From assembly GCA_950059285.1 (NCBI GenBank), contig CATLTV010000041.1, positions 1-33,164 on the forward strand: 33,164 nt of DNA. The letters are read 5' to 3'. A program made the position numbers and the translations under genes. Positions within the stretch are counted from its first letter, which is position 1, and the number at the start of each line of letters is the position of its first letter. The notes under the pieces were generated by a model that was not told the origin of the DNA, searched no databases, and saw only the letters and a list, made by a program, of their open reading frames with translations. Source of the stretch: an uncultured Pseudomonadota bacterium (GTDB taxonomy: Bacteria; Myxococcota_A; Bradymonadia; Bradymonadales; Bradymonadaceae). This document shows positions 15,341-33,164 of the stretch, piece by piece.

Positions 15341-15408
15341 TGTATGATGTGTTGGTAGAAAAAAACGGCTTGAAAAAAGTCAGCAAAACAGGCTAGTTAT
15401 CAACTACA
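15341..15408 (+). promoter_or_regulatory. CRISPR1 leader (conserved part)
   Basis: These 68 bases directly precede the first repeat and match 31858-31925, in front of CRISPR2, with only two mismatches. Further upstream the two sequences diverge. TATGAT at 15343-15348, conserved in both leaders, could be a -10 box. The end TTATCAACTACA at the repeat junction is where Cas1-Cas2 would insert. The rest of the gap back to the lipoprotein start (15187-15340) is AT-rich and shows no gene. Confidence 0.8.
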
Positions 15409-18400
15409 GTGTTCCCCGCATGCGCGGGGATGAACCGTCCTTCATGCAATCTCTCACATGAGAACTTAAGTGTTCCCCGCATGCGCGGGGATGAACCGAG
15501 GGTCGCGACGGTGTGAACGCTGTGCTTTTCGTGTTCCCCGCATGCGCGGGGATGAACCGTTGAAACGGCGTCCGATGCCTACTTGTACGCCGTGTTCCCC
15601 GCATGCGCGGGGATGAACCGGCAAGGTGTGAGGGTGAAGGAGTTGGAGGAGCGTGTTCCCCGCATGCGCGGGGATGAACCTCCAATGTAATCAGCGGCGG
15701 GGTGTAATATGGCGTGTTCCCCGCATGCGCGGGGATGAACCGACAGGCAGCCAAAGACCTCCCCCTGGAATTTTGTGTTCCCCGCATGCGCGGGGATGAA
15801 CCGCACTGCGTCGGCATCGAATCAGCGCTTTGATCGTGTTCCCCGCATGCGCGGGGATGAACCGTAATGCCTACCATTCAGCCCCTTCAAAACAAAGTGT
15901 TCCCCGCATGCGCGGGGATGAACCGATATTCTGCGTTAGTCTCTTCCGAGACTAACGGTGTTCCCCGCATGCGCGGGGATGAACCGCCCAGACAGGCCAC
16001 GGGCGAACACGCCCCGCCGTGTTCCCCGCATGCGCGGGGATGAACCGTTCCTTGACCCGTTAGAGCGGGTGACAATAATGTGTTCCCCGCATGCGCGGGG
16101 ATGAACCGAGGATCAGTCGGGTCAACTCAAGAGGGACCTGGTGTTCCCCGCATGCGCGGGGATGAACCGTCATCAAACATGTAACCTCCTCATTTTCAAC
16201 CGTGTTCCCCGCATGCGCGGGGATGAACCGTTGAATGCAAGTCACCGTTGTCGGCAAATGAGGTGTTCCCCGCATGCGCGGGGATGAACCGTGCCCGCAC
16301 AGTACGCCAAGTCCAGCAGGTAGGTGTTCCCCGCATGCGCGGGGATGAACCGGATGCCCTCGCACAGGAGCAGCAGATCCTCGAGTGTTCCCCGCATGCG
16401 CGGGGATGAACCGAACAGTCAACATACTATTTCCTTTTGTTTTGTGTGTTCCCCGCATGCGCGGGGATGAACCGTCTATGAGTTAGAGCTATATCTGATT
16501 GATAGTGTGTTCCCCGCATGCGCGGGGATGAACCGTTATGGCTCTAGTTACAACACCCGCAACAGTAGTGTTCCCCGCATGCGCGGGGATGAACCGCGCT
16601 AAAAGTATTCTTGACAGTCTCTACTACAGTGTTCCCCGCATGCGCGGGGATGAACCGCGCTAGTCATCAGTGAAGGTGTGATGATTGGTGTGTTCCCCGC
16701 ATGCGCGGGGATGAACCGCGCTTAGAAAGCCTGCTAGACCCCTTCTCGCAGTGTTCCCCGCATGCGCGGGGATGAACCGAGTGTTGTGTGGATTTTCCTC
16801 TTCTTATCACTGTGTTCCCCGCATGCGCGGGGATGAACCGTCGTTTGGACGCTTATAAAAAGGGTTCATAATGTGTTCCCCGCATGCGCGGGGATGAACC
16901 GTTAATTGGAATGAAACTTCTCTTCTCTTTTGAGTGTTCCCCGCATGCGCGGGGATGAACCGGGGTTGGTGAGGTCGGTGACTCCAGATAGAGAGTGTTC
17001 CCCGCATGCGCGGGGATGAACCGTTCGGCTGTAGGTTTCCTTGTAGTGCTACTGAGTGTTCCCCGCATGCGCGGGGATGAACCGAGGCGGTGCTATTTGA
17101 GCTTGCGCACCAGTTGGTGTTCCCCGCATGCGCGGGGATGAACCGCTTGGTCGACGGTAAACTTGTTCTTTGTCTCGGTGTTCCCCGCATGCGCGGGGAT
17201 GAACCGGCATACCTCACCTCCTCCCACTCGTTGCGCTCGTGTTCCCCGCATGCGCGGGGATGAACCGAGCTATCCAGTCTGCGATCTGGCTTTCGTCAGG
17301 TGTTCCCCGCATGCGCGGGGATGAACCGCTTCCTTCCTCTACTCCAAGCGCTTGGACAGGGTGTTCCCCGCATGCGCGGGGATGAACCGCAAAAACAGGG
17401 ATGAAAATGATCTTGGTTAAGGTGTTCCCCGCATGCGCGGGGATGAACCGGCCCCCGTGGGGGCGGGGGGCTAGAGCGTCTCGTGTTCCCCGCATGCGCG
17501 GGGATGAACCGTTGACCCAGTCACCGTTAAATCCATCCACGCGGTGTTCCCCGCATGCGCGGGGATGAACCGTTTTACAAAATAGCGATTGACAAATGGA
17601 CATGGTGTTCCCCGCATGCGCGGGGATGAACCGAGATCATTTCTTTCACTGCTTTAATCCCACTTGTGTTCCCCGCATGCGCGGGGATGAACCGAAGTTT
17701 TCGACGGTTGCGACGGTAAAAGCGTTGTGTTCCCCGCATGCGCGGGGATGAATCGCAAAGCGCGCTGCACCTGATTCTTTTTACCGAGTGTTCCCCGCAT
17801 GCGCGGGGATGAACCGCTCCTGTATCCATTTTTGAAGCTGTATGACAAGTGTTCCCCGCATGCGCGGGGATGAACCGCTTGTGAGGTCAAGATTCTCTGG
17901 CACATCCACGTGTTCCCCGCATGCGCGGGGATGAACCGCGGCTGGTCCTGCTTTTGACTGGATGAAGGATGTGTTCCCCGCATGCGCGGGGATGAACCGC
18001 AATTTCACCCTCACTATCTCAGAAGTATTTGGTGTTCCCCGCATGCGCGGGGATGAACCGAAAAAACACCTTGACAACACTGCAACGGTGAGGTGTTCCC
18101 CGCATGCGCGGGGATGAACCGCGGACTACGATGACGATTAAAGCACAATGGGAGTGTTCCCCGCATGCGCGGGGATGAACCGCGCTTTGAATAATTGCTT
18201 GCTCACAAAATTACGTGTTCCCCGCATGCGCGGGGATGAACCGGCTATGGGTAGCCTCCCAAAAAGTCTACGTGAGTGTTCCCCGCATGCGCGGGGATGA
18301 ACCAGGGTGGCGCTGCCGCTGACTGTCTCGGTGGCGGTGTTCCCCGCATGCGCGGGGATGAACCTCTTGTACAGTCTACCTTACTAAGAAATACACAGTG

Positions 18401-21400
18401 TTCCCCGCATGCGCGGGGATGAACCGGTCCAAGGGGAGTTGGTTGTTTAACTAATAACGTGTTCCCCGCATGCGCGGGGATGAACCGGTATCCCATGGCA
18501 CTTAGTTGAAGCCATATGAGTGTTCCCCGCATGCGCGGGGATGAACCGAAAACGATCTGCGTGAGGATGATCTTATTGAAGTGTTCCCCGCATGCGCGGG
18601 GATGAACCGCATGGCTTGTTGAAACCACGGAGTGATAAGAGGTGTTCCCCGCATGCGCGGGGATGAACCGCGTTACGAGATCATCATCATGAGACTCCTC
18701 AAGTGTTCCCCGCATGCGCGGGGATGAACCTTGTGTCATTTGATGGCAAGACCAGAAAAGCGCGTGTTCCCCGCATGCGCGGGGATGAACCGAGACAATC
18801 CAACCTCTTAAACAGTGTACTGAAGTGTTCCCCGCATGCGCGGGGATGAACCGCTTGCGGGCATTTATTCACCTGTGGATTACAAGTGTTCCCCGCATGC
18901 GCGGGGATGAACCGCTTCGAGGTCTGTTCCTCTTGGTCTTCAAATAGTGTTCCCCGCATGCGCGGGGATGAACCAGATGAACTGGTTATCCAACGTCCCT
19001 GAACAACGTGTTCCCCGCATGCGCGGGGATGAACCCGGCATCGTGAATCTCGATGTGCGTCAGACCATGTGTTCCCCGCATGCGCGGGGATGAACCGCAG
19101 CCTCAGAAACTCACAGGTGTGCTCGGCAAGTGTTCCCCGCATGCGCGGGGATGAACCGTCTTCGGTTACTTGTCCGCGGCCCGCGTCGAGGTGTTCCCCG
19201 CATGCGCGGGGATGAACCGCATCACGTCATCTGCGACCTGAGCACGGTTTAGTGTTCCCCGCATGCGCGGGGATGAACCGACCTGCGCCGCAACTCACTT
19301 GCATGGGAGCGTGTGTTCCCCGCATGCGCGGGGATGAACCGTTGTCATTTGGTTTTACTGAAAAGGAACAACTGTGTTCCCCGCATGCGCGGGGATGAAC
19401 CGCGGGTGGTACGGTTGCACCAGAAACGCACTACGTGTTCCCCGCATGCGCGGGGATGAACCGCATCAATCCAGGCTGGACAATGCTCTTCCAGGGTGTT
19501 CCCCGCATGCGCGGGGATGAACCGGTGGAGCTGAGCCCGAGATCGAACAAAAAGTAGTGTTCCCCGCATGCGCGGGGATGAACCGTGTTTCCTCGTGCGA
19601 TAGCGTGTCATCCTGTGGTGTTCCCCGCATGCGCGGGGATGAACCGCGGCCGCTAACCCGAGCGCCACAAGTAGTCCCGTGTTCCCCGCATGCGCGGGGA
19701 TGAACCGCTTCGGGACCAAAATGCGGATGCTCCTGGAGCGTGTTCCCCGCATGCGCGGGGATGAACCGGCGCTGCTCGTGGCTCTCAACCTCCTGGCTGG
19801 GTGTTCCCCGCATGCGCGGGGATGAACCTCGCGCAGCCAATCGCTTGGCGCCGCCTTATGAGTGTTCCCCGCATGCGCGGGGATGAACCGAGCCAACACG
19901 AGCGCGATCGTGATGTCTCCATGTGTTCCCCGCATGCGCGGGGATGAACCGCGCCGCCGATGCCGCCAGGCAGTTTAAACAACGTGTTCCCCGCATGCGC
20001 GGGGATGAACCGCAACTCGATCAACTTCCATTTGTATGCATCAAGTGTTCCCCGCATGCGCGGGGATGAACCGTTCATGGCTCTGTAAAATCCTGCGTGA
20101 GCGTAGTGTTCCCCGCATGCGCGGGGATGAACCGCCAGTGAGTGACGACACTAAAACAGTCAGGGAGTGTTCCCCGCATGCGCGGGGATGAACCGCATCG
20201 CATGTGTATCGACACAGGGCGCTTGACGTGTTCCCCGCATGCGCGGGGATGAACCGCGGCAGGCCAAACAACGCCAAAATAATAAATGGTGTTCCCCGCA
20301 TGCGCGGGGATGAACCGGCAAAAATCATTCAGAACGAAGTGACTGTTGAGTGTTCCCCGCATGCGCGGGGATGAACCGGGGGTAGTTGTTGTTTAACTTA
20401 CAACAACTACGTGTTCCCCGCATGCGCGGGGATGAACCGGGGCTCTTGCGCCTGCTTAATCACCCTGTGGTGTGTTCCCCGCATGCGCGGGGATGAACCG
20501 CTGTTCCTTGAGGTCATCCACCCCAATCGATCGTGTTCCCCGCATGCGCGGGGATGAACCTTCTCCATGGTTGTAGGCGCCCCTTGCTCAATTGTGTTCC
20601 CCGCATGCGCGGGGATGAACCAGGGACCAATGCGGACGTGTGCGTACAATTAACAGTGTTCCCCGCATGCGCGGGGATGAACCACTTTCTGCCATCGTTT
20701 TTCCGGTTTCGGGGGCGTGTTCCCCGCATGCGCGGGGATGAACCGTGTTGGCCCCGTGGTGCGAAAAGTATCGTGTGGTGTTCCCCGCATGCGCGGGGAT
20801 GAACCGTCATACGTCTTGCCGCTCTGATCCTTCCGCGTGTGTTCCCCGCATGCGCGGGGATGAACCGCCCATCTTAACTTTACTGGCCCTTCATCCCTGG
20901 TGTTCCCCGCATGCGCGGGGATGAACCGCGAATTGCCTGTATCCTACCAGCGCATCGGCGGTGTTCCCCGCATGCGCGGGGATGAACCGTTTATTCTGTT
21001 GGCCTTGTTCGTTACGGCCGTGTGTTCCCCGCATGCGCGGGGATGAACCGCTCTTCTTCTTTCCAGACAGCTTCCAGGGGTAGTGTTCCCCGCATGCGCG
21101 GGGATGAACCGACGCTTTAAAACAAAACCTGATTGTGTATACCGTGTTCCCCGCATGCGCGGGGATGAACCGCTGTTGTAGGCCGCGCTCACCACCCACG
21201 CTTGGTGTTCCCCGCATGCGCGGGGATGAACCGTCCAGCGGGTCTTGTGGAGTAGAAGTTACTGCGTGTTCCCCGCATGCGCGGGGATGAACCGCTCGAG
21301 TTCACAATCAGCTTTAATGGGGACCAGTGTTCCCCGCATGCGCGGGGATGAACCGTCATTTGAATACATTGGCCCTGTGGCAGCTATGTGTTCCCCGCAT

Positions 21401-22453
21401 GCGCGGGGATGAACCGTTCTATTTGAGCAATGGTTTCAATGCTCGTCAGTGTTCCCCGCATGCGCGGGGATGAACCGGCCAGGTTCGATTAGGACTGGAG
21501 TTCAACCAGGTGTTCCCCGCATGCGTGGGGATGAACCGGCGGATATTAAGGGCACTGCTGAGGCGTTTGAGTGTTCCCCGCATGCGCGGGGATGAACCGG
21601 CATCAGGCTATGTGCAGGACGATAGCGTGCAGTGTTCCCCGCATGCGCGGGGATGAACCGCTCACAGCAAGGCGACGAAGATAAGCGCTCACGTGTTCCC
21701 CGCATGCGCGGGGATGAACCGGGCCATCGTTATTCACCGTCGTATGCGTCGTCGTGTTCCCCGCATGCGCGGGGATGAACCGTCTAGCTGGACGTCGAAG
21801 GGAAGGAAGGGAACGTGTTCCCTGCATGCGCGGGGATGAACCGCGCTCGGCCTGAGCACTGAGGTCGTGGAGGCAGTGTTCCCCGCATGCGCGGGGATGA
21901 ACCGGGGGCGTTATCGGCCTAAAATCAAATCGACAACTGTTCCCCGCATGCGCGGGGATGAACCGATAGGAAACACAAAAGAGTAAGTCTCGGTGTCGTG
22001 TTCCCCGCATGCGCGGGGATGAACCGCTTCGATTTGATCGCCAGTTTGTTCGGTCAGAGTGTTCCCCGCATGTGCGGGGATGAACCGTATATAAGCGCAT
22101 CATGTTGTGTGCTGAACTGGTGTTCCCCGCATGAGCGGGGATGAACCGCGTGGGCACAGGATTTGGGGACCGTGGAACACGTGTTCCCCGCATGAGCGGG
22201 GATGAACCGCAGGACGATCTCGCCGAGGATTTTGAGTCTCTGTGTTCCCCGCATGCGCGGGGATGAACCGTTGCAAAGGCACGCACAGCGGACCCGAAGG
22301 CAGTGTTCCCCGCATGCGCGGGGATGAACCGCGTTGGCAATCTGGAACAAATTTGGGGACATGGTGTTCCCCGCATGCGCGGGGATGAACCGGACCGAGT
22401 CCATGTTCATGTTGTTGGGGAGGAGTGTTCCCCGCATGTGCGGGGATGAGGTG
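15409..22453 (+). CRISPR. CRISPR1 array, type I-E, 116 repeats and 115 spacers
   Basis: The 29-nt repeat starts GTGTTCCCCGC, has ATGC as loop and ends GCGGGGATGAACCG. Positions 6-11 pair with 16-21, forming the hairpin that Cas6e cuts. It resembles the E. coli I-E repeat. Starts recur every 61 nt (32-nt spacers) from 15409; one spacer after the repeat at 20594 is 33 nt. The last repeat (22425) is degenerate (base 15 changed and a different end), and variants gather at the right end, so the leader is on the left and transcription is rightward. I found no duplicated spacer by eye and no spacer matching a gene in this window, but I could not search properly. Long open frames encoding FIPAHAGNT / VHPRACGEH / GSSPRMRGT-type repeats on the minus strand are artefacts of the repeat. 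Confidence 0.98.
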
Positions 22454-22566: not shown

Positions 22567-23250
22567 TCAAGACATTTTTCGGATGAGCATGAGGCCATTG
22601 CCGTAGGCTTTGGTTCTGCCAAGTCCATGTTGGAGTGAGGTTAAAAACTTCTCAGGATCGGTGACGGTGAGAACGCCATCAAAATCAATGGTGTGGAAGT
22701 TAACTTCCTGTTTTGAGTTGAGGTGTTTTCTGAAACGGTGTCCCTGGTATCCATCGGCAATGGTTTGCTGTTCGTGGACAGTGAACCCATTTCTAATACC
22801 CTGATTTTTCAACCAGTTTATACCAGCCTGCTGGACCAGAACCGATTGTGGTGGAATCGGTTTTGACTCCTCCTTGAGCATGTGTTTCTGGTGCATGACA
22901 ACATCATGTCTCTTGCCTCGTTTCCCCTTGCTTGCCGTCACGGCAATGGTGGCATTTGCGCGTAATTTAAACGCAAGTGTGGTGCCTGATTGCAATGCAG
23001 GTGCGTAGGGTTTGCTGGCTACTTTGAGGTAACCGCCCCAGTCAGAGGGTTTTTCGGATGAAAGCGTCCATAACACCATGTCATCACGTGTGTGTTCTTC
23101 ACGAAAGATGAAGTTTCGTGTTTTGTTGGCGTCTCCTCCAAAGGCTTGCCAGGCGAGGATGTGGCCTGGATGGCCATGCTTGAAGAGGCGAGCGAGCTCT
23201 TCCAGTGGAACCTTCTGTTTGTTGAGTTGGATTTTGCTCAGATAGGTCAT
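22567..23250 (-). CDS. cas6e: Cas6e (Cse3/CasE), crRNA-processing endoribonuclease
   Basis: The protein has 227 aa. Cas6e cuts the repeat RNA 3' of its hairpin and stays on the crRNA end as the Cascade head. The start MTYLSKIQL is typical. His30 in GHPGHILAWQAF aligns with the catalytic His20 of E. coli CasE and His26 of Thermus Cse3. The glycine-rich RNA-binding loop GLGRTKAYGNGLMLIRK is at 209-225. ATG 23250 is chosen because AAGGAGGAG precedes it; an upstream in-frame start would extend into cas5e. The start overlaps the cas5e stop by four bases (ATGA). It is the last gene of the leftward interference operon. Confidence 0.93.
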   Translation of the reverse strand: MTYLSKIQLNKQKVPLEELARLFKHGHPGHILAWQAFGGDANKTRNFIFREEHTRDDMVLWTLSSEKPSDWGGYLKVASKPYAPALQSGTTLAFKLRANATIAVTASKGKRGKRHDVVMHQKHMLKEESKPIPPQSVLVQQAGINWLKNQGIRNGFTVHEQQTIADGYQGHRFRKHLNSKQEVNFHTIDFDGVLTVTDPEKFLTSLQHGLGRTKAYGNGLMLIRKMS

Positions 23251-23978
23251 GATTTTTCTCCTCCTTGTGAGGTCCATCGTGCGCTGGACTCATGTCTATC
23301 CTGAAATGTCCAGTGTTTACGGCTCAATACGTCATCTCGGCGGGTGGCGTGGAACTCTGCATCAAGTCCAATGTGTGACCTGGGTGCTGTGGTGTCCCAG
23401 TAGAGACGAGGCTCCTTGGATGGGAATGCCAACGGCATTGTAAAGTCATTTTTTTCAATGGCTTGCTTTAGATCTTGAGCCTCAATACAGCGCGCGTCTG
23501 GTGGTGTGAGCAATGGGCAACTTTTGCGCCCAAGGCTCAGCGTCCACTTTGGTGCATTGAGCGCGCTGGCGATGGTTGCCAACGTAAACGTAGGGTTGTC
23601 CGAGGTGTGCCAGACCGCGACGGTCATGCTCTGGTCGCAAAAATATGTGCGTCGAGAGAGGATCGTGGCGATCGATTTGTAGTTCAGCTCTTCTGTACGA
23701 TTGGCAAGCTCGCGACCCTTGTTGCCATCAGGCGTCTGGGTCGTGTGGAAATCTTCCAGTGGGACACCTGTATGGTGCATCAATGTCGCAATATACAGGT
23801 CCCTGGAGAGGCTCTGATGACGTGCATCATCACCTCGTTCAATGCCAAGTGCAGCGCCAATCAACCCCAGCAAGGCTGAGCGTGTGGGGTGATTGTCACT
23901 GGTACGAAGTTCACCTGCTACCACCTCACCCCAACTTGCCAGTACGCCCTGGAGTTGAAATAAAAGGTAGTTACGCAT
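23247..23978 (-). CDS. cas5e: Cas5e (CasD), Cascade subunit
   Basis: The protein has 243 aa, usual for Cas5e. The start MRNYLLFQLQGVLASWGEVV is the family hallmark (hydrophobic strand, then G-x-x-x-S-W-G), and TRSALLGLIGAALGIERGD follows as the helix after it. Cas5e binds the 5' handle of the crRNA in Cascade and contacts Cas8e. AGGAGGGA lies just before the start. The gene overlaps cas7e by eight bases and cas6e by four, so the three are translationally coupled. Confidence 0.93.
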   Translation of the reverse strand: MRNYLLFQLQGVLASWGEVVAGELRTSDNHPTRSALLGLIGAALGIERGDDARHQSLSRDLYIATLMHHTGVPLEDFHTTQTPDGNKGRELANRTEELNYKSIATILSRRTYFCDQSMTVAVWHTSDNPTFTLATIASALNAPKWTLSLGRKSCPLLTPPDARCIEAQDLKQAIEKNDFTMPLAFPSKEPRLYWDTTAPRSHIGLDAEFHATRRDDVLSRKHWTFQDRHESSARWTSQGGEKS

Positions 23979-25035
23979 TGAATCCCTCCTGAATGAACTT
24001 CACGATGTCATCCATGCTGCCTTCTCCACTCAAGACGTTGAGAGACTGGCTGCCACTTGCCCACTGTCCGTAAGCGCGATCCATTTTGTCTCGCATCTCC
24101 AACAAGGTGTTGACGCTCTTGTCAAGCTGGCCATTTTCCTGGTTGCCGTTCAAGAAGGCCATGGAAAGTTGACGAGGTGTCTTCTGTCCACGCTCTGCCA
24201 GCATGTAGTGTGCGTAGGCGTGCGCTGCAAATGAGTTTTGCTTGCCCGATGGTGCGACCTGTGCACAGGATTTGGCGAGTGCGATGATGGTTTGTGCAGC
24301 CAACTCCTTGTCACCACTGAGGTTTTCAATAAGCTGATCCTGGTTGATGTTCACATAAAGATAGAACACACCAGAGGCGAAGTTGGCCTCACCAATGTGG
24401 CCAGCGCCTCCATCTTCGGTGTTCAAATCATCCACCGCAGAGAAGTAGTCATCTTCCACATCAACCTCATGAATGGTGATGGCATGCGCGACTTGAACGG
24501 CAGCGTCCACGTTGAACTTGGGGTTGTCTGCGAGCATGCGTCCAAACATGGCGATGTCAGCAGCCTTGCTTTCACTTTGCAGAAGTTGTTTGTTCCAGTT
24601 TTTATCCCAGTCCTCTGCGTTGACCATCTCATTTTGAATCAACTCACGAATGGCAGCGCGCTCGGTTGGGCTGACATGGACAAGCTGCTCTGTTTCAAGC
24701 TCTGTCATGTCATTGTCTTTCTTTGCTTTCTTGGTCTTTGCAAAAGTCTTTGCGATTTCCTGGCTAAACTTTTTGGCGGTCTCCTCCGAGATACCAGCTT
24801 CGATCATCTCCTTGTAGACCTCGACGCCAAGCTTCTTGGTGCGTTGTCCCATGAACTCTGAGCGCATGTCGTCGAACATGGGGCCAGTGCGCCAGGCGCG
24901 TTTGAGTGCTTGCGAAGAGACACGCAGACGCTGCTTTCCTCCAAAGATTGCGGTCTTGGGGCGGCCAAGATCATCGCGGTTGAGGTTTGCTGGAGGATAA
25001 GAGATAAGAAGGTGAAGTTGCAAAAATGTAGACAT
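23971..25035 (-). CDS. cas7e: Cas7e (CasC/Cse4), Cascade backbone subunit
   Basis: The protein has 354 aa, typical length. The N-terminus LQLHLLISYPPANLNRDDLGRPK, followed by FGGKQRLRVSSQALKRAWRT, is the Cas7e signature; six copies normally line the crRNA. A charged segment FAKTKKAKKDNDMTELETEQ near residue 105 is probably the variable thumb/finger region. GGGAGHIGEANFASGVFYLYVNI is also family-typical. AAGGAG lies before the ATG at 25035. The gene starts 38 bases after cse2 ends. Confidence 0.95.
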   Translation of the reverse strand: MSTFLQLHLLISYPPANLNRDDLGRPKTAIFGGKQRLRVSSQALKRAWRTGPMFDDMRSEFMGQRTKKLGVEVYKEMIEAGISEETAKKFSQEIAKTFAKTKKAKKDNDMTELETEQLVHVSPTERAAIRELIQNEMVNAEDWDKNWNKQLLQSESKAADIAMFGRMLADNPKFNVDAAVQVAHAITIHEVDVEDDYFSAVDDLNTEDGGAGHIGEANFASGVFYLYVNINQDQLIENLSGDKELAAQTIIALAKSCAQVAPSGKQNSFAAHAYAHYMLAERGQKTPRQLSMAFLNGNQENGQLDKSVNTLLEMRDKMDRAYGQWASGSQSLNVLSGEGSMDDIVKFIQEGFNA

Positions 25036-25073
25036 GTAAATCTCCTTTTTTTATAGTGTGTTATACGTTTTGT

Positions 25074-25619
25074 TTACGAAAGAACTGTGCAGTCATAATA
25101 GGTTTCAGCCCATTGTTGTCGTATGCGTGCATCCCAGTGCAAGACATCATAAATGAGCTTTTTGACAGGGAGTTTCTTGCCTGTCAGCGGGATGGTTCGG
25201 CGCAGCTGCGTTGTCAGCGCATCATGGGACTCACAACGAAGAAGCTTCAAGAACCTCAACTCACTTACAGCAGGGCGCTCGCTCTCGGAGATACGTCCCA
25301 TCGCATGACCCACGCTGCGTGATTCGCGGTCATCATGGCGAATATGCGGGCAAATCATGGCGAGGCTGATGAGTTGCTCGGTTTGCTTGCTTCGATCGAC
25401 GTCAATATCTTCCTGCAAAAGCAGCAATCTGAGGTTGTGATAAGCCGGCAACAGCAGGACCTGCTCCTTTGTCGTTGCTCGCCTCAGTTCGGCAGCATCC
25501 TTGCGTCGAACAGGATAGGTATCTCCTGCAAGTTGTGTCTCCTCATGAAGACGCGTCCACCAGAGGTAGACAATATCCTCAAAGGATTTTCGTGATGTGG
25601 ATTCAGAGGTGTCAGACAT
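25074..25619 (-). CDS. cse2: Cse2 (CasB/Cas11), Cascade small subunit
   Basis: The protein has 181 aa and is mostly helical. Family features are WWTRLHE near residue 20, DAAELRRATTKEQVLLLPAY and the C-terminal phrase KLIYDVLHWDARIRQQWAETYY. Two copies stabilise the target and displaced DNA strands in Cascade. The start is ATG 25619 after AAGGATT. The gene sits between cas8e and cas7e as in the standard I-E order. Confidence 0.93.
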   Translation of the reverse strand: MSDTSESTSRKSFEDIVYLWWTRLHEETQLAGDTYPVRRKDAAELRRATTKEQVLLLPAYHNLRLLLLQEDIDVDRSKQTEQLISLAMICPHIRHDDRESRSVGHAMGRISESERPAVSELRFLKLLRCESHDALTTQLRRTIPLTGKKLPVKKLIYDVLHWDARIRQQWAETYYDCTVLS

Positions 25620-25666
25620 AAATCATAATCCTTGTTCTGATGTGATGGTGAATAAAATAGTGCATG

Positions 25667-27346
25667 TTAAACAGTGGTGTATTTCCCCCAGGATTTACCT
25701 CTGGGGTTGCTTTGGCGTTGTAATTCCTTGCGTGCAAAGGTCGCGGCACGCACATCCTGAGCGTGTGCAAGATCACTTGGGGCCAGCGCGTCGAAGTAGC
25801 TGGTGATGATGTCTCGTAGATATGTTCTCCAGGTGAGATAGATCTCCAGAATAGTCTCCTGAGAGGGGTCTTCATCTGCATCAAGGAGCGCCTTTAATGT
25901 GCTCAGTGTGTCGTAGTATCTGCTCTCAGTATCATCCCAGAGTGCTTGCATGGGGCCTTGCACGATTGAGGAGCTTCTATCAGGGACATTATCCCCCTTG
26001 AGATCCCAGGTGGCGTTCCCCTTGGCGTCTTTTCCAGTGACCTTTCCACCGAGTAGTTTGCGTGCCGAGTGATAGAAGATATCTTCATAGCGTGCGGCTG
26101 TATCGATGAGACTCTGGGCGTGATTGATAAAGAGTTCGTGGGCCTCTTTATCATCAAAGATCCAGATGGGGACCTTGCCTTGATTCCACTGGAGGGTTTT
26201 TGCATTGTCCATTTCGTAGCCAAAGACAAACATCTGAAATGGTTTTCTTTCTCCGTGAGATAGCTCACTTTGTCGGAGATAAAAGTGGCCCACATTGGCT
26301 GCAATGACCTCACCCTTGGCCTCTTCTTCATTGTGCTTTGACTGCCTACAACTTAGCGATGGCCAGTTGGAGTATCGCAGACTGCGTGATGAGCCTTTCT
26401 GTGAGATAAACTCAAGTTGTTTTGACTTGGTTTGGTAGCGATAGGGCGTAAGTGGATGTTTCCATCGGCCAATATAATTGGTGCCATAGTTGCTCTTTTC
26501 AAACGTTTGGTAACGTGCCAAATGCGTTGTGTAGAGGCCACACTGTCCAAGGTCTGTGTATGGGTTTTCTTGTAGTTTGATGAGCCAGGGCATGGACCAG
26601 TAAACCTGAAGCAAGTGCACGTCTTCCGGGCGAGTGTCCACACCTCCTTTTTTGGCGTTGCTTTGGCGAGTGGGGCCACACCATGGGAAGATTGCAGCAT
26701 CGACACCGGATGCTTTGCCGCCAACTTCCTCGGCAAGGAGCACATTGTTCCAGAGCGTATCCCAGAGTGTGTCGCCCAGTACGAGTGTCGTGAGAGGACC
26801 GCCCCCACGCACGGATGTGCGGTATCCTGGACCTCCGCCATAAGCGTTGGTTTGCATGGAGAACAGTGAGAGCGCTGCTGCTGCCGGGCTCATGGGTTCT
26901 TCTGTGCGCTTGATAAAGAAGTCTGAGTTTTTCTTGCGTGTATTGTCTCCTGGCGAGTTGATCCAGAGGTCTGTAATGGGGCAGACCGAGCCACCGATGT
27001 CTTCCATGGGCTGCATGAATCGAGGACCATCACCATTGAGGTTGAACGCGCCAATGATCGTTTCAAATGCAGCATGAAGGGTTGCAGGTGAAGGAGGGGT
27101 TTCATGCAAGTCATGCCATTGATCTCCATCCTCGGGTGCGATTGTGGTTTGCAGGAGTGCAATCAAGAATTGCAGCGCAGCCGCGTCCAGATCTGGTCTT
27201 GGCGTGCGGATAGTGATGATGGGGTCGTCCTCAAGTTGAGATGTGATCTCATGAGGTGCGATGAACTCCTCCTTGCCGCTTTTGCGTTGGACGGGAAGCC
27301 ATTGCTCACGCAATAGATTGTATGGTTTTTGTGTGTGTTCAGGCAC
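25667..27346 (-). CDS. cas8e: Cas8e (Cse1/CasA), Cascade large subunit
   Basis: The protein has 559 aa. Cas8e recognises the PAM, opens the target DNA and recruits Cas3. The start YNLLREQWLPVQRKSGKEEF and the later FNLNGDGPRFMQPMEDIGG are typical, as is NAYGGGPGYRTSVRGGGPL. The start is GTG 27346 after GGAGAG, only 15 bases after the cas3 stop, so the two are co-transcribed. Length and domain order look complete. Confidence 0.94.
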   Translation of the reverse strand: MPEHTQKPYNLLREQWLPVQRKSGKEEFIAPHEITSQLEDDPIITIRTPRPDLDAAALQFLIALLQTTIAPEDGDQWHDLHETPPSPATLHAAFETIIGAFNLNGDGPRFMQPMEDIGGSVCPITDLWINSPGDNTRKKNSDFFIKRTEEPMSPAAAALSLFSMQTNAYGGGPGYRTSVRGGGPLTTLVLGDTLWDTLWNNVLLAEEVGGKASGVDAAIFPWCGPTRQSNAKKGGVDTRPEDVHLLQVYWSMPWLIKLQENPYTDLGQCGLYTTHLARYQTFEKSNYGTNYIGRWKHPLTPYRYQTKSKQLEFISQKGSSRSLRYSNWPSLSCRQSKHNEEEAKGEVIAANVGHFYLRQSELSHGERKPFQMFVFGYEMDNAKTLQWNQGKVPIWIFDDKEAHELFINHAQSLIDTAARYEDIFYHSARKLLGGKVTGKDAKGNATWDLKGDNVPDRSSSIVQGPMQALWDDTESRYYDTLSTLKALLDADEDPSQETILEIYLTWRTYLRDIITSYFDALAPSDLAHAQDVRAATFARKELQRQSNPRGKSWGKYTTV

Positions 27347-27361
27347 GTATCTCTCCGTATG

Positions 27362-30280
27362 TTAAACGTTTTCAGCTATTTCAAGGCCATAGGTTTCGCT
27401 GTAGTGGAGTGTGGTGGTTTCCTTGTGTGGATTCAGGACCTGTCCGACCCAAAGGTCTGGTGTGGTGGGATGGGGTTCAAGAATGACGCACAGTGTGTAG
27501 CGACATTTGTCGCTCATGTTGTTGTTTTTCAAGCGAGTGAGCGCCTTTTTGTGCGCGCTGTTGATGTCTTCTTCTGCGGCATATTTTGTCAGGATACGCA
27601 CATCGCTACGTGGCCATGGATGAGGTTGTTTTCTGCTTGCCCAGGGCTCAAGGCCAGTGGATGTCTTCTTGAGGAGACGCAAGGTTGAGCTGGGCTCGCC
27701 CAGGCGAGTGGGGGTTTGCGTTTCTGGCAACCAGACCTTGAAGGTGTCAGGTTTGACACCGTATCCATCTTCAAGTTTGAGGCTGTTGCGCAGGGCCTGA
27801 CCGTACTCAACATCTTCTTCAATGATTGCCTCATAGCTTGTGTTTTCGAGACCTTCGGGAATGTCGCCATCTTCTGCAAAGACCTCCTCGACGAGGTTTC
27901 TACTCTCTGTGGGGAGCTCAATGACGCGGCCATGTTGATGGTCATCAGACAGGAGGCAGCGCATGGTTCTCCAGAGCTGGTCATGGCGAGGGTAGACGTA
28001 GGCCGCTCTGGAGAAGAGGTCTGCGTACCAGTTTTCTTGTGGCTCATCGCTCCAGGTGGGGGCAAGCACATGAAAGATGCGTTCACCGCGTAGATCGGCG
28101 TTAAGATCCTGTTGTGATTCGAGCAAGTTACCGTGAATGTCGCGTGCATGTCTGCGGTAGCGTCCCAGGCGTTGAATCAACAGATCCATGGTGGTCAGGT
28201 CAGAGACCATCTCATCAAAGTCGACATCCAGGGACTGTTCAATGACCTGTGTGGAGATGACAAGTTTGCCTTTGCGATCTGACGCCGTGCTGTGTTTCCC
28301 GAACAGGTTAAGTACCTGTTCTTCCACACGAAGTCTGTCCTCCATGGTCATGCGAGCATGGAAGAGTAGTACGTCATCGGTGTTGATATCAGGATCGTTT
28401 TTGAGTTCTCGTGCCATGGCGACTGCGTCGGCGACTGTGTTACGAATCCAGCATACACATCTGCCTTCACGAAGTTGTGCTTTGATCCAGCCCAGCGTGT
28501 CTTCATCGGAGTGGAAGAATGCACAGCGTGTTTGCCGAGGTTGAGATGACAGCTTGACAGGGTAGTTGTCTGTATGTGTGGGCGTAATGTGGGAGAGTAA
28601 GGGGTAGTCTGTGGGTGGGTTTTGGTGTTCTAAGGTGTTGTTTGTAAGGGGTTTTTGTGATGTGTATAGCGCTCCTTCTTGGAAGGCTTCTGTGAGTTTT
28701 TGGCGTGTGGTTGATGGGAGTGTGGCAGAGAGCAAAATGGCGCTACCACCCTGTGCGGCGTGGTGTTTAAGCAGGTTGCACACCAGCGTGTTTGTGTAGG
28801 CATCGTAGGCATGAACCTCATCGATGATGAGGATTTTTTGACCCAATGCAAAGAGCCTTAATGATTGATGTTTTGAGGGAAGTACAGCGAGGAGTGCTTG
28901 ATCCACGGTGCCCACACCGACATCCGCAAAGAGAGCGAGGTGGCGATGGTGTGCAAAGAACTCTGCGCATACTGCTTCAGCGGTGGAGTCTGGTGTGGAT
29001 GCACCTTGTGATGTGTAAGTGGTGTGACCTGGCGAGGTTTTGGCACGCATGGCCTCCTCAAAGAGATTAAGTGCTTTTTGATATGTGGATGAGAGGAGGC
29101 GTTGGCCGTGAGCAAGGATAAGTGATGGTGTTTCTTCCGGGGCAAAGAAGTTCTGATAGGTTGTGGCAAGGCGCTCGTACATGGCGTTTGATGTGGCCAT
29201 GGTGGGGAGCGCGATATAGATGCCCTGTCCAAGTTCTGCTTCCTGGAGTTTCTTGGCGAGCATGAGGGCGGCTTCTGTTTTGCCGCTACCTGTTTCATCT
29301 TCAAGGATGAAGAGTTGAGGCACATCTGGCGTGATGTGTGTGGCGATGGCTTGCTGTTGTAGGGGGCGGGGGGTGTACGATGCAAGATGAGGAAAGAGGT
29401 CTTCAAACGCGGTATGTGCGGCGTGTTTTGGCGTGACAAGGGTGCGTTTTTCTACTGATTTTTTCGCCGTGGGCAGGGCATGGTTGTGCCAGTAATCTTC
29501 AATCGAATGAATGTGTTTGTGGAAGGTGAACGCGCTGGAGTCTGAGCCTGTCCAGTCGCACAGGACGTAGAGTCCTGCGAGGGTCCAGGAGATGGCCTTG
29601 ATATGTTGTAGGACGAGGGTGCTTTCTTGAGGGGAAGTAAAGTGGAAGAGTTCTGTATGCGAAGGTTGTTGAGATGGTGGGTACAGCAGTGCGATCATGT
29701 CATGCCAGAAGGAGAGGACATCACGTTTGGTTTGCTTGTTCCTGAAGTAAGGGGCTTGATCTACCGAGTTAAGTACATCAACAGGTTTGCCATGGTGACC
29801 AAAGATGCCGTGGAGCAGGGCGGCAAACCAGGGTGAGCGCTTGCGGTGGGATGATGGCAGGCTGTTGATAAATGCAAAGAGTTCGGGGGAGTTTTCATAC
29901 GCGTTGGCAAGGACTTTATCCCAGGCCACAAAACCCATGGCATCATGGCGGACATTGTATGGTTTTGAGCTTTTCTTGCCTTGCAGCAGTTCAAAGAGTT
30001 CAGGGACAAGGTTTTGAAAGGACTCCTCAAACTTTCCAATGTCGTGGAGTGCAATAAGGAAGACCAGGAGTCGTTTGAGCGCCTGCGGTGTGCTGTTGAC
30101 TCTGGGGGCAAGCCGTTCAAGGATGTGAGGGTTTTTATCAAGAAAAACTTGAGCCATTGCAGCGACATCCATGCAGTGGCACACCAGCAAGTGGTAGCTC
30201 TCTAATGGCGTTTTTCGATCGGCTTTCCCCCAATACTTTTGCCAGTATGGTGGTGCCGCGAGTGTGTCTTCTGTAGACAT
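27362..30280 (-). CDS. cas3: Cas3, HD nuclease-helicase of the type I-E system
   Basis: The protein has 972 aa with no fusion or truncation. The HD nuclease domain covers about residues 20-280: H35, the H79-D80 pair (ALHDIGKFE) and FGHHGKP near 161-167 are metal ligands. The SF2 helicase domain has Walker A ETGSGKT (329-335), DEVH (487-490), SATLP (518-522) and the C-terminal motif QRLGRYRRH (703-711). All key residues are present, so it should be active. ATG 30280 follows AGAGGT. This is the first gene of the leftward operon, divergent from cas1 across a 328-bp gap. Confidence 0.96.
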   Translation of the reverse strand: MSTEDTLAAPPYWQKYWGKADRKTPLESYHLLVCHCMDVAAMAQVFLDKNPHILERLAPRVNSTPQALKRLLVFLIALHDIGKFEESFQNLVPELFELLQGKKSSKPYNVRHDAMGFVAWDKVLANAYENSPELFAFINSLPSSHRKRSPWFAALLHGIFGHHGKPVDVLNSVDQAPYFRNKQTKRDVLSFWHDMIALLYPPSQQPSHTELFHFTSPQESTLVLQHIKAISWTLAGLYVLCDWTGSDSSAFTFHKHIHSIEDYWHNHALPTAKKSVEKRTLVTPKHAAHTAFEDLFPHLASYTPRPLQQQAIATHITPDVPQLFILEDETGSGKTEAALMLAKKLQEAELGQGIYIALPTMATSNAMYERLATTYQNFFAPEETPSLILAHGQRLLSSTYQKALNLFEEAMRAKTSPGHTTYTSQGASTPDSTAEAVCAEFFAHHRHLALFADVGVGTVDQALLAVLPSKHQSLRLFALGQKILIIDEVHAYDAYTNTLVCNLLKHHAAQGGSAILLSATLPSTTRQKLTEAFQEGALYTSQKPLTNNTLEHQNPPTDYPLLSHITPTHTDNYPVKLSSQPRQTRCAFFHSDEDTLGWIKAQLREGRCVCWIRNTVADAVAMARELKNDPDINTDDVLLFHARMTMEDRLRVEEQVLNLFGKHSTASDRKGKLVISTQVIEQSLDVDFDEMVSDLTTMDLLIQRLGRYRRHARDIHGNLLESQQDLNADLRGERIFHVLAPTWSDEPQENWYADLFSRAAYVYPRHDQLWRTMRCLLSDDHQHGRVIELPTESRNLVEEVFAEDGDIPEGLENTSYEAIIEEDVEYGQALRNSLKLEDGYGVKPDTFKVWLPETQTPTRLGEPSSTLRLLKKTSTGLEPWASRKQPHPWPRSDVRILTKYAAEEDINSAHKKALTRLKNNNMSDKCRYTLCVILEPHPTTPDLWVGQVLNPHKETTTLHYSETYGLEIAENV

Positions 30281-30608: not shown

Positions 30609-31550
30609 ATGGCAGAGCAAGAGCTTGAAAAGCTCAACCCAATTCCTATCAAGCACAGGTTTTCGGTGTTGTTTTTGGAGAAGGGCCATCTCAACATGGA
30701 GGATGGTTCTTTTTTATGGATTGATCACGAGGGTGTCAGGGTACACATCCCCATTGGAAGCGTGGCGTGCATTATGCTGGAGCCAGGTACGCGCATCTCC
30801 CATGCTGCGGTTGATCTGGCCGCGACGACAGGAACTCTGATTATCTGGGTGGGAGAGCAGGGCGTGCGCGTGTACTCTGCAGGCCAGCCTGGAGGTGCAC
30901 GTTCAGACAAGCTTCTTTATCAGGCCAAGCTTGCGTTGGACGATTCCTTGCGTTTGAAAGTGGTCAAGGCCATGTTTGCGTATCGCTTTGGATCTGCACC
31001 ATCAAAGCGAAGTGTCAAGCAGCTGCGTGGCATGGAGGGAGTGCGTGTGCGAAAGTTATACAAGACCATTGCACAGCAATATGGTTTGAGATGGGAAGGG
31101 CGAAAGTACGACCCCAAAAAGTGGAAAGATGGGACTCTGATCAATCGCTGCATCAGTGTGGCTACATCATGTCTGTACGGTGTGACTGAAGCCGCTGTTT
31201 TGGCAGCAGGTTATGCTCCTGCAATTGGATTTCTTCATACAGGTAAGCCGCGTTCTTTTGTGTATGACATTGCCGACCTGTTCAAGTTTGAGACGGTGGT
31301 TCCCGTGGCGTTTAGATGTGCGGCGATCATCAAGAGAGGTGGTTTACCCGCAGGTGTCTCCAGTGAACAGCTGGTGCGTTATGGCTGTCGTGACGTGTTT
31401 CGACAGGAACGCATCCTCGCCAAAATTATCCCCACCATTGAAGATATTCTTGCTGCTGGTGACATTGAACCACCAGGACCATTTGAAGATCAAATCCTTC
31501 CCGCAATTCCAAATCCGGAGGTGTCAGGTGATGACGGTCATCGTAACTGA
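30609..31550 (+). CDS. cas1: Cas1e, CRISPR integrase
   Basis: The protein has 313 aa. The catalytic residues match E. coli Cas1 (E141, H208, D218, D221): here E143 in GMEGVRVRKLYK, H210 in GFLHTGK, and D220/D223 in VYDIADLFKFE. The integrase should therefore be active. It works with Cas2 to insert new spacers beside the leader. ATG 30609 follows AAGAGAGG. Its end overlaps cas2 by 20 bases. Unusually for type I-E, the gene is not at the end of the interference operon but on the opposite strand, upstream of cas3. Confidence 0.96.
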   Translation: MAEQELEKLNPIPIKHRFSVLFLEKGHLNMEDGSFLWIDHEGVRVHIPIGSVACIMLEPGTRISHAAVDLAATTGTLIIWVGEQGVRVYSAGQPGGARSDKLLYQAKLALDDSLRLKVVKAMFAYRFGSAPSKRSVKQLRGMEGVRVRKLYKTIAQQYGLRWEGRKYDPKKWKDGTLINRCISVATSCLYGVTEAAVLAAGYAPAIGFLHTGKPRSFVYDIADLFKFETVVPVAFRCAAIIKRGGLPAGVSSEQLVRYGCRDVFRQERILAKIIPTIEDILAAGDIEPPGPFEDQILPAIPNPEVSGDDGHRN

Positions 31551-31824
31551 AAATGTACCCGCTCGTTTAAATGGACGCATTGCGGTGTGGTTGCTCGAAA
31601 TTCGTGCAGGCGTTTTTGTGGGCAATATCTCCAAAAAACTCAGAGACCAGCTGTGGCAAACGATCTGTCAACAGGTTGAAAATCATCATGGTAACGTTGC
31701 CATGGCCTGGGCCTCTTCATCCAACGAGGTTGGTTTTGAGTTCGACACTATCGGTGAAAACAGGCGTATTCCTCGCCGCATGGATGGCGTTACACTCATT
31801 TCATTTTTACCTCAAAAGAAGTGA
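31531..31824 (+). CDS. cas2: Cas2e, structural subunit of the spacer integrase
   Basis: The protein has 97 aa and begins MTVIVTENVPARLNGRIAVW, the standard Cas2e start (compare MxVLVVVTENVPPRLRGRL types), followed by LLEIRAGVFVGNISKKLRD. It bridges two Cas1 dimers. ATG 31531 is chosen by homology and by GGAGG nine bases upstream; longer in-frame extensions into cas1 are not real. The stop is 33 bases before the conserved leader of CRISPR2, so cas1-cas2 transcripts may continue into the array. Confidence 0.94.
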   Translation: MTVIVTENVPARLNGRIAVWLLEIRAGVFVGNISKKLRDQLWQTICQQVENHHGNVAMAWASSSNEVGFEFDTIGENRRIPRRMDGVTLISFLPQKK

Positions 31825-31857: not shown

Positions 31858-31925
31858 TGTATGATTTGTCGGTAGAAAAAAACGGCTTGAAAAAAGTCAG
31901 CAAAACAGGCTAGTTATCAACTACA
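31858..31925 (+). promoter_or_regulatory. CRISPR2 leader (conserved part)
   Basis: These 68 bases match the CRISPR1 leader with two mismatches and end directly at the first repeat. The divergent part between the cas2 stop and this block is only 33 bases. TATGAT (31860-31865) is conserved. The leader is complete enough to guess that this 68-bp block is the functional minimum for adaptation. Confidence 0.8.
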
Positions 31926-33164
31926 GTGTTCCCCGCATGCGCGGGGATGAACCGATCTCGCTGCTGTTGGCTGCGACCTCGAAACCGTGTTCCCCGCATG
32001 CGCGGGGATGAACCGGGACGTGCTATTTGCGTACGTGACCCCCGAAGGTGTTCCCCGCATGCGCGGGGATGAACCGACTACAAGACATCAAAGATAAGCG
32101 ACGCGCGTGTGTTCCCCGCATGCGCGGGGATGAACCGCTCGTCTGACTCCCATCAATCTGAGTGTTGTAGTGTTCCCCGCATGCGCGGGGATGAACCGCC
32201 ATTGAGATTAATCATTGATCCATGAGGTTGGTGTTCCCCGCATGCGCGGGGATGAACCGTCCGGGCGACTGGAGACTATCAGAGAATACACGTGTTCCCC
32301 GCATGCGCGGGGATGAACCGGGGCGAGGCGCAGCCGAAACAGCCTCCTCAATGTGTTCCCCGCATGCGCGGGGATGAACCGCGTACTTTCAGCGCAGATA
32401 GCGTTGTTTCTATGTGTTCCCCGCATGCGCGGGGATGAACCGGTAGACGTGTAGAAAACCCCCGAGGTGTCTACGTGTTCCCCGCATGCGCGGGGATGAA
32501 CCGACGAAGAACTGGCGAGTGTCAGAGATCGCACTGTGTTCCCCGCATGCGCGGGGATGAACCTTCACTCTCCCGTATGGGATGGCCTTTGCAAACGTGT
32601 TCCCCGCATGCGCGGGGATGAACCGTACAGAAAAGGGAGCAAGGATGTTGACTATGGGTGTTCCCCGCATGCGCGGGGATGAACCGCCACGCTTGATGTG
32701 CTCTGCCGCAACGTGTTCGTGTTCCCCGCATGCGCGGGGATGAACCGTCATCATTAGGAAGGTCTTGCCACACCTCACCGTGTTCCCCGCATGCGCGGGG
32801 ATGAACCGAGGCTGTGGGCGTAAACAACAGGGGCGAGTTTGTGTTCCCCGCATGCGCGGGGATGAACCGGATCTCGTTTGCGTCACGCTCAAGTTTTGGC
32901 AGTGTTCCCCGCATGCGCGGGGATGAACCGATCGCGCCCCTCGTGTGTGCGCGCGTCTACCGGTGTTCCCCGCATGCGCGGGGATGAACCGCGTTTGCGC
33001 CGAATTACATCCCAAAGGGGCCGGTGTTCCCCGCATGCGCGGGGATGAACCGGCGCTCCTGCTCCTCTCGCCACGAGTCAAGCAGTGTTCCCCGCATGCG
33101 CGGGGATGAACCGATCAACCTTGAACCCGGCGTAGGGATTCATTAGTGTTCCCCGCATGCGCGG
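31926..33164 (+). CRISPR. CRISPR2 array, type I-E, at least 21 repeats (truncated by the window)
   Basis: Repeats are identical to the CRISPR1 consensus and start every 61 nt from 31926 to 33146; the last is cut at the window edge after 19 bases. Twenty full 32-nt spacers are visible and none repeats one that I noticed in CRISPR1. All visible repeats are regular, as expected near the leader. Only the repeat at 32536 ends in T instead of G. The array has the same orientation as CRISPR1 and directly follows cas1-cas2. Confidence 0.98.

Follow-up and report, generated by a model that had tools for sequence, protein, structure and literature searches.

Ten of the 115 repeats that precede a spacer in CRISPR1, a type I-E array of an uncultured bacterium of the family Bradymonadaceae, end in T, A or C in place of G. 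These atypical last bases date from acquisition, and they are probably fossils of imprecise capture by the type I-E Cas1-Cas2 integrase. Error signatures are present at the spacer ends, and the atypical bases are in excess in the middle of the array; this mid-array excess is the robust claim, and the runs of neighbouring atypical repeats partly follow from it. The errors seen here are of known kinds and the feature is real; for the clustering itself, the evidence is suggestive and falls short of proof.

The window, i.e., the whole stretch of 33,164 nucleotides that was analysed, contains a complete type I-E CRISPR-Cas system with two arrays of one repeat:

15341-15408, forward strand: leader segment of CRISPR1, sharing 98% identity with that of CRISPR2 (31858-31925)
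15409-22453, forward strand: CRISPR1 array, 115 spacers, leader at the left end (array parsing)
22567-30280, reverse strand: type I-E interference operon cas3-cse1-cse2-cas7e-cas5e-cas6e
30609-31550, forward strand: cas1, type I-E Cas1e (TIGR03638, 351 bits, cut-off 215.6)
31531-31824, forward strand: cas2, type I-E Cas2e, 97 aa (TIGR01873)
31926-33164, forward strand: CRISPR2, same repeat as CRISPR1, 19 complete spacers, runs off the contig end

Genes of the window matched the casE, casD, casC, casB, casA, cas1_ECOLI and cas_CT1978 models above cut-off, as did both the core and the HD domain of Cas3, and the 97-aa cas2 product has no fused exonuclease domain. The CRISPR1 repeat is GTGTTCCCCGCATGCGCGGGGATGAACC followed by G. 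Its repeats span 15409-22392, with a degenerate terminal repeat additionally at 22425, and 114 of the 115 spacers are 32 nt long, spacer 86 being the sole 33-nt one. The format is that of type I-E, with a 28+1 nt repeat, 32-nt spacers and the leader at the newest end, which was recognized by the decayed repeats at the opposite end and by the leader sequence common to both arrays. CRISPR2 seemingly continues at the start of contig C44 of the same genome (L060:1-430; window side 33085-33164), where the last CRISPR2 spacer recurs, altered at a few bases, and is followed by six more spacers, all after G. The body variant GATGAATC in place of GATGAACC occurs once in CRISPR1, in repeat 39 (17727), and once in this presumed continuation (L060:280).

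In the type I-E system of E. coli, the last G of the repeat is contributed by the AAG PAM of the DNA that is taken up (PMC10011333), and Vink 2021 (PMC8482600) likewise describes a last base of PAM origin in type I-E repeats. The same origin is assumed here for the last repeat G. In CRISPR1 this base is variable, which supports that origin indirectly; no protospacer was located that would show an AAG-like PAM. Based on our proposed mechanism, each captured fragment would begin with what becomes the last repeat base, as a rule the PAM G, so that this base would travel with the spacer that follows it. Three kinds of error would then leave different end bases. In error (a), the cut at the PAM end would fall one base outside (-1 slip), giving A-G or T-G, where the hyphen marks the repeat-spacer junction, and sometimes a 33-nt spacer. 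In error (b), the fragment would be inserted backwards (flip), and the PAM G would appear as C at the far spacer end. Error (c) would be a +1 slip, or the capture of DNA that lacked the usual PAM.

Array parsing confirmed the ten atypical CRISPR1 repeats of the original prediction (10/115), its 33-nt spacer after repeat 86 as the only one of that length, and its placement of repeats 48-87 at 18276-20684. These repeats and the one from CRISPR2 are as follows, with dots leading to the last spacer base:

15653-15713, forward strand: repeat 5, last base T (15681); 32-nt spacer ends in C, flip-compatible
18276-18336, forward strand: repeat 48, last base A (18304); spacer begins with G and does not end in C, -1 slip signature A-G
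18337-18397, forward strand: repeat 49, last base T (18365); T-C...A, neither flip nor -1 slip
18703-18763, forward strand: repeat 55, last base T (18731); spacer ends in C, flip-compatible
18947-19007, forward strand: repeat 59, last base A (18975); A-G...C, ambiguous, slip or flip
19008-19068, forward strand: repeat 60, last base C (19036); C-GG...T, no flip, possibly a -1 slip with a different PAM base
19801-19861, forward strand: repeat 73, last base T (19829); T-C...A, neither flip nor -1 slip
20533-20593, forward strand: repeat 85, last base T (20561); T-T...T, neither flip nor -1 slip
20594-20655, forward strand: repeat 86, last base A (20622); 33-nt spacer 20623-20655, i.e., A-G plus 32 nt
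20656-20716, forward strand: repeat 87, last base A (20684); A-C...C, flip-compatible
31926-33164 (CRISPR2), forward strand: repeat 11, last base T (32536); spacer ends in C, flip-compatible

The PAM, offset and orientation of the atypical spacers were read from their end bases alone, and the error class of each single spacer is accordingly putative. Error (a) would account for 48, 86 and perhaps 59 and 60; error (b) for 5, 55, 87, perhaps 59, and CRISPR2 repeat 11, the single atypical case among the 19 complete spacers of that array; and error (c) for 49, 73 and 85, with repeat 49 reflecting either off-PAM capture or a +1 slip. Six of the nine atypical repeats between 48 and 87 cannot be simple flips: 48 and 86 are clear -1 slips, 60 is a possible one, and 49, 73 and 85 fit neither pattern.

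That the atypical bases are marks made at acquisition agrees with the contrast between the last base and the repeat body. In repeats 1-100, one substitution was found in 2,800 body bases, as against ten changed last bases in 100, so that last-base changes are approximately 280 times denser. Most body changes are found among old repeats close to the trailer (101-112), which is the pattern expected of decay; the last-base changes are not concentrated there. Based on these counts, mutation and repeat decay were rejected. A sequencing or assembly error might be considered because the genome is a draft of 441 contigs; nevertheless, it would meet the same disparity, and in other arrays non-G bases are accompanied by signatures at the spacer ends that mutation would not yield. 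We thus regard mutation or sequencing error of the last repeat base as strongly disfavoured and very improbable. Among the old repeats (22059-22209, 22425), 111 and 112 share one loop variant, 110 and 116 share another, and 113-115 are canonical, an order that is hard to explain by simple copying of the leader-proximal repeat.

The comparison set comprised about 1,440 spacers from other type I-E arrays, taken from 35 identical-repeat stretches of GTDB genomes, from plasmid arrays found by similarity and from the 304-spacer type I-E array of a same-family genome, G031 (C3:60523-79030, L091/L092 region). The near-palindromic repeat also gave rise to reverse-strand pseudo-arrays (e.g., L116-, L120-), and these were left out by hand. 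Non-G last bases make up about 2.5-2.9% outside the family and 5.9% in G031, and CRISPR1, with 8.7%, differs from the arrays of other taxa. Among 379 genomes of the phylum, atypical repeats were found solely in the window genome, G031 and G012. In the G031 array, spacers 49-53 are exactly duplicated as 199-203, implying that distant repeats of this array have recombined.

A reversed insertion would put the PAM G at the far end as C. In the non-window arrays, 32 of 47 atypical spacers end in C, compared with 433 of 1394 (31%) normal ones (Fisher p=3e-7); this excess persists when stratified by array (p=5e-5), and C at position -1 was the sole clear signal among 24 base-by-position tests. In the window by itself, 5 of 11 atypical spacers end in C against a background of 24% (p=0.12), and in a later, small set of further plasmids, with reverse-strand artefacts removed by hand, 1 of 7 did so. 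The end bases suggest that most atypical cases in other type I-E arrays are the mark of fragments taken from a normal PAM and inserted in reverse. Off-PAM acquisition, proposed originally as the meaning of the atypical bases, does not hold as their usual meaning, given the flip signature in most cases elsewhere. For CRISPR1 the term is too narrow, as four of the ten are flip-compatible (5, 55, 87 and, ambiguously, 59) and two or three more resemble 1-nt slips around a normal PAM.

The slip signature shows in the 33-nt spacers, of which the window and G031 together have four, each preceded by a non-G repeat (p=1.6e-5). With one from a Deinococcus plasmid (spacer 13), the 33-nt spacers after a non-G repeat number five (window 86; G031 90, 182 and 212), and all five have G as their first base after a repeat ending in A or T, indicating that capture overshot the PAM G by one base. 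The spacer 86 of the window thus belongs to the atypical-base phenomenon, as originally proposed, the same pattern being present in the four others; its end bases (A-G, 33 nt), like those of spacer 48 (A-G), carry the -1 slip signature, and its PAM-end cut appears to have fallen one base too far out. In other taxa, 25 of 26 33-nt spacers follow G and presumably carry the additional base at the opposite end. The three G031 spacers are all T-G and that of the window is A-G, which may mean that their PAMs differ in the second base, ATG-like as opposed to AAG-like.

These signatures have counterparts in the laboratory. "Slipped" and "flipped" spacers are known from naive and primed adaptation in the type I-E system of E. 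coli and the type I-F system of Pectobacterium (Shmakov 2014, the original flip paper, as cited in PMC4117759 and PMC6568314; Richter 2014, PMC4117759; Staals 2016, PMC5059440). In type I-F, six of seven off-PAM 33-nt spacers lay 32 nt from the correct PAM (PMC4117759), and -1 slips go with wrong spacer lengths (PMC5059440). The 1-nt PAM offset, the 33-nt length with -1 slips and the occasional reversed insertion are common to those systems and CRISPR1. In E. coli and Pectobacterium, however, new spacers were mapped to a known plasmid, whereas CRISPR1 is a natural array whose marks are read without recourse to protospacers and whose non-flip errors, unlike in those cases, gather in a single stretch.

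The distribution along CRISPR1 was analysed with 200,000 shuffles over its 115 positions. The permutation test of runs gave four adjacent pairs where 0.78 would be expected (p=0.003), in agreement with the original claim that the atypical bases cluster more than chance, although the test is post hoc. Seven atypical repeats lie inside runs (p=0.002), the longest run is three (p=0.051), and nine fall within 40 consecutive positions (p=0.005). The block 48-87 was picked after the data had been seen and the runs were noticed before they were tested, so these clustering p-values, which range from 0.003 to 0.07 by statistic, are optimistic. Inside the block 9 of 40 repeats are atypical, and outside it 1 of 75. 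Given nine in the block, a weak further excess is left in pairs (p=0.058) and in members of runs (p=0.032).

That errors in this lineage occur at a constant rate, roughly 6-9%, and that the clustering is due to chance and hindsight, is a serious possibility, even if we lean against it. A best-segment scan of free width gives p=0.066, the within-block values are 0.03-0.06, and the arrays outside the family show no adjacent atypical repeats, with 0.71 expected. In G031, the overall rate is similar (18/304) and the clustering is mild, with two adjacent pairs against 1.0. The adjacency value and the contrast between block and flanks argue against chance, as does the behaviour of the error classes. 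Clustering is seen for non-flip events, both in the window (p=0.048) and again in G031 (p=0.045), and is not seen for flip-compatible ones (p=0.43 and p=0.49, respectively). Non-flip cases amount to 6 of 40 in the block and 15 of 1441 in the other arrays (p=1e-5); elsewhere in CRISPR1 there are 0 of 75, all six clear cases lying within repeats 48-86. The shift in spacer GC content between blocks is small (0.48, 0.51, 0.52).

No protospacer was found for any spacer of the array in the phage and plasmid collections, where the matches were other CRISPR arrays or marginal, and 21 same-family genomes gave only arrays and marginal matches. Searched against their own genome, the atypical spacers matched nothing beyond the arrays and one weak 23-nt match, and the 52 atypical spacers of all arrays matched nothing in phages and plasmids but arrays themselves. 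The 20-22-nt cores of spacers 48, 49, 59, 60, 85, 86 and 87 had no match in IMG/VR. Several spacers are near-perfect inverted repeats, namely CRISPR1 9 (15926-15957) and 82 (20379-20410) and CRISPR2 9 (32443-32474), and look as if captured from hairpins, e.g., terminators.

On the acquisition-error reading, non-flip errors were much commoner in the era of repeats 48-87 than before or after it. Tentatively, the most likely reason, unproven, may be a phase of naive-like, less PAM-guided acquisition. In E. coli, naive adaptation yields <50% AAG and 14% non-functional PAMs, and primed adaptation >90% AAG and <1% non-functional PAMs (PMC6568314). About 22% non-G in the block versus 1.3% outside fits these figures qualitatively; the match is not quantitative because the commonest non-AAG naive PAMs likewise end in G.

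The same figures speak against the suggestion that the bursts arose during primed adaptation. With each run as one infection, in which fragments supplied by Cas3 were badly processed during priming against a single element, the excess of runs over chance would be accounted for, and slipped spacers are good primers in the account of Jackson 2019 given in PMC6568314, so that errors and priming could be linked. Priming is nevertheless a poor cause of errors, since it is the PAM-faithful mode in E. coli, accurate where naive adaptation is inaccurate, and in type I-F naive and primed PAM fidelity are equal (PMC5059440). Additionally, the runs mix error classes, and no two spacers of the window share a stretch of at least 12 nt. 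We consider primed bursts quite unlikely and the primed reading of the clusters probably wrong.

A temporary change in the integration machinery during repeats 48-87, be it in Cas1-Cas2, a trimming nuclease or a leader-binding host factor, also seems unlikely, if a little less so. The block excess consists of cut-position errors and not of flips, a pattern that suggests a fault in trimming or PAM sensing more than in DNA selection, and a temporary change of that kind would look the same as a naive-like phase. Against it, a second cas1 was not traced in the genome, which gave one Cas1 match, and the present sequence holds nothing to date such a change.

Taking the naive-like phase together with the end-base signatures, the order of last bases in a natural type I-E array could be a time record of acquisition mode, a joint reading that we hold as rather doubtful. 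If it is true, stretches with about 20% atypical, mostly non-flip bases would correspond to naive-like adaptation to new elements and clean stretches to priming, and the end bases alone would separate slips from flips, both already known from laboratory acquisition experiments. Read by two end-base rules, the natural arrays of uncultured bacteria would give the fidelity of Cas1-Cas2 and its errors of orientation without protospacers, and changes in fidelity could be followed across the history of an array.
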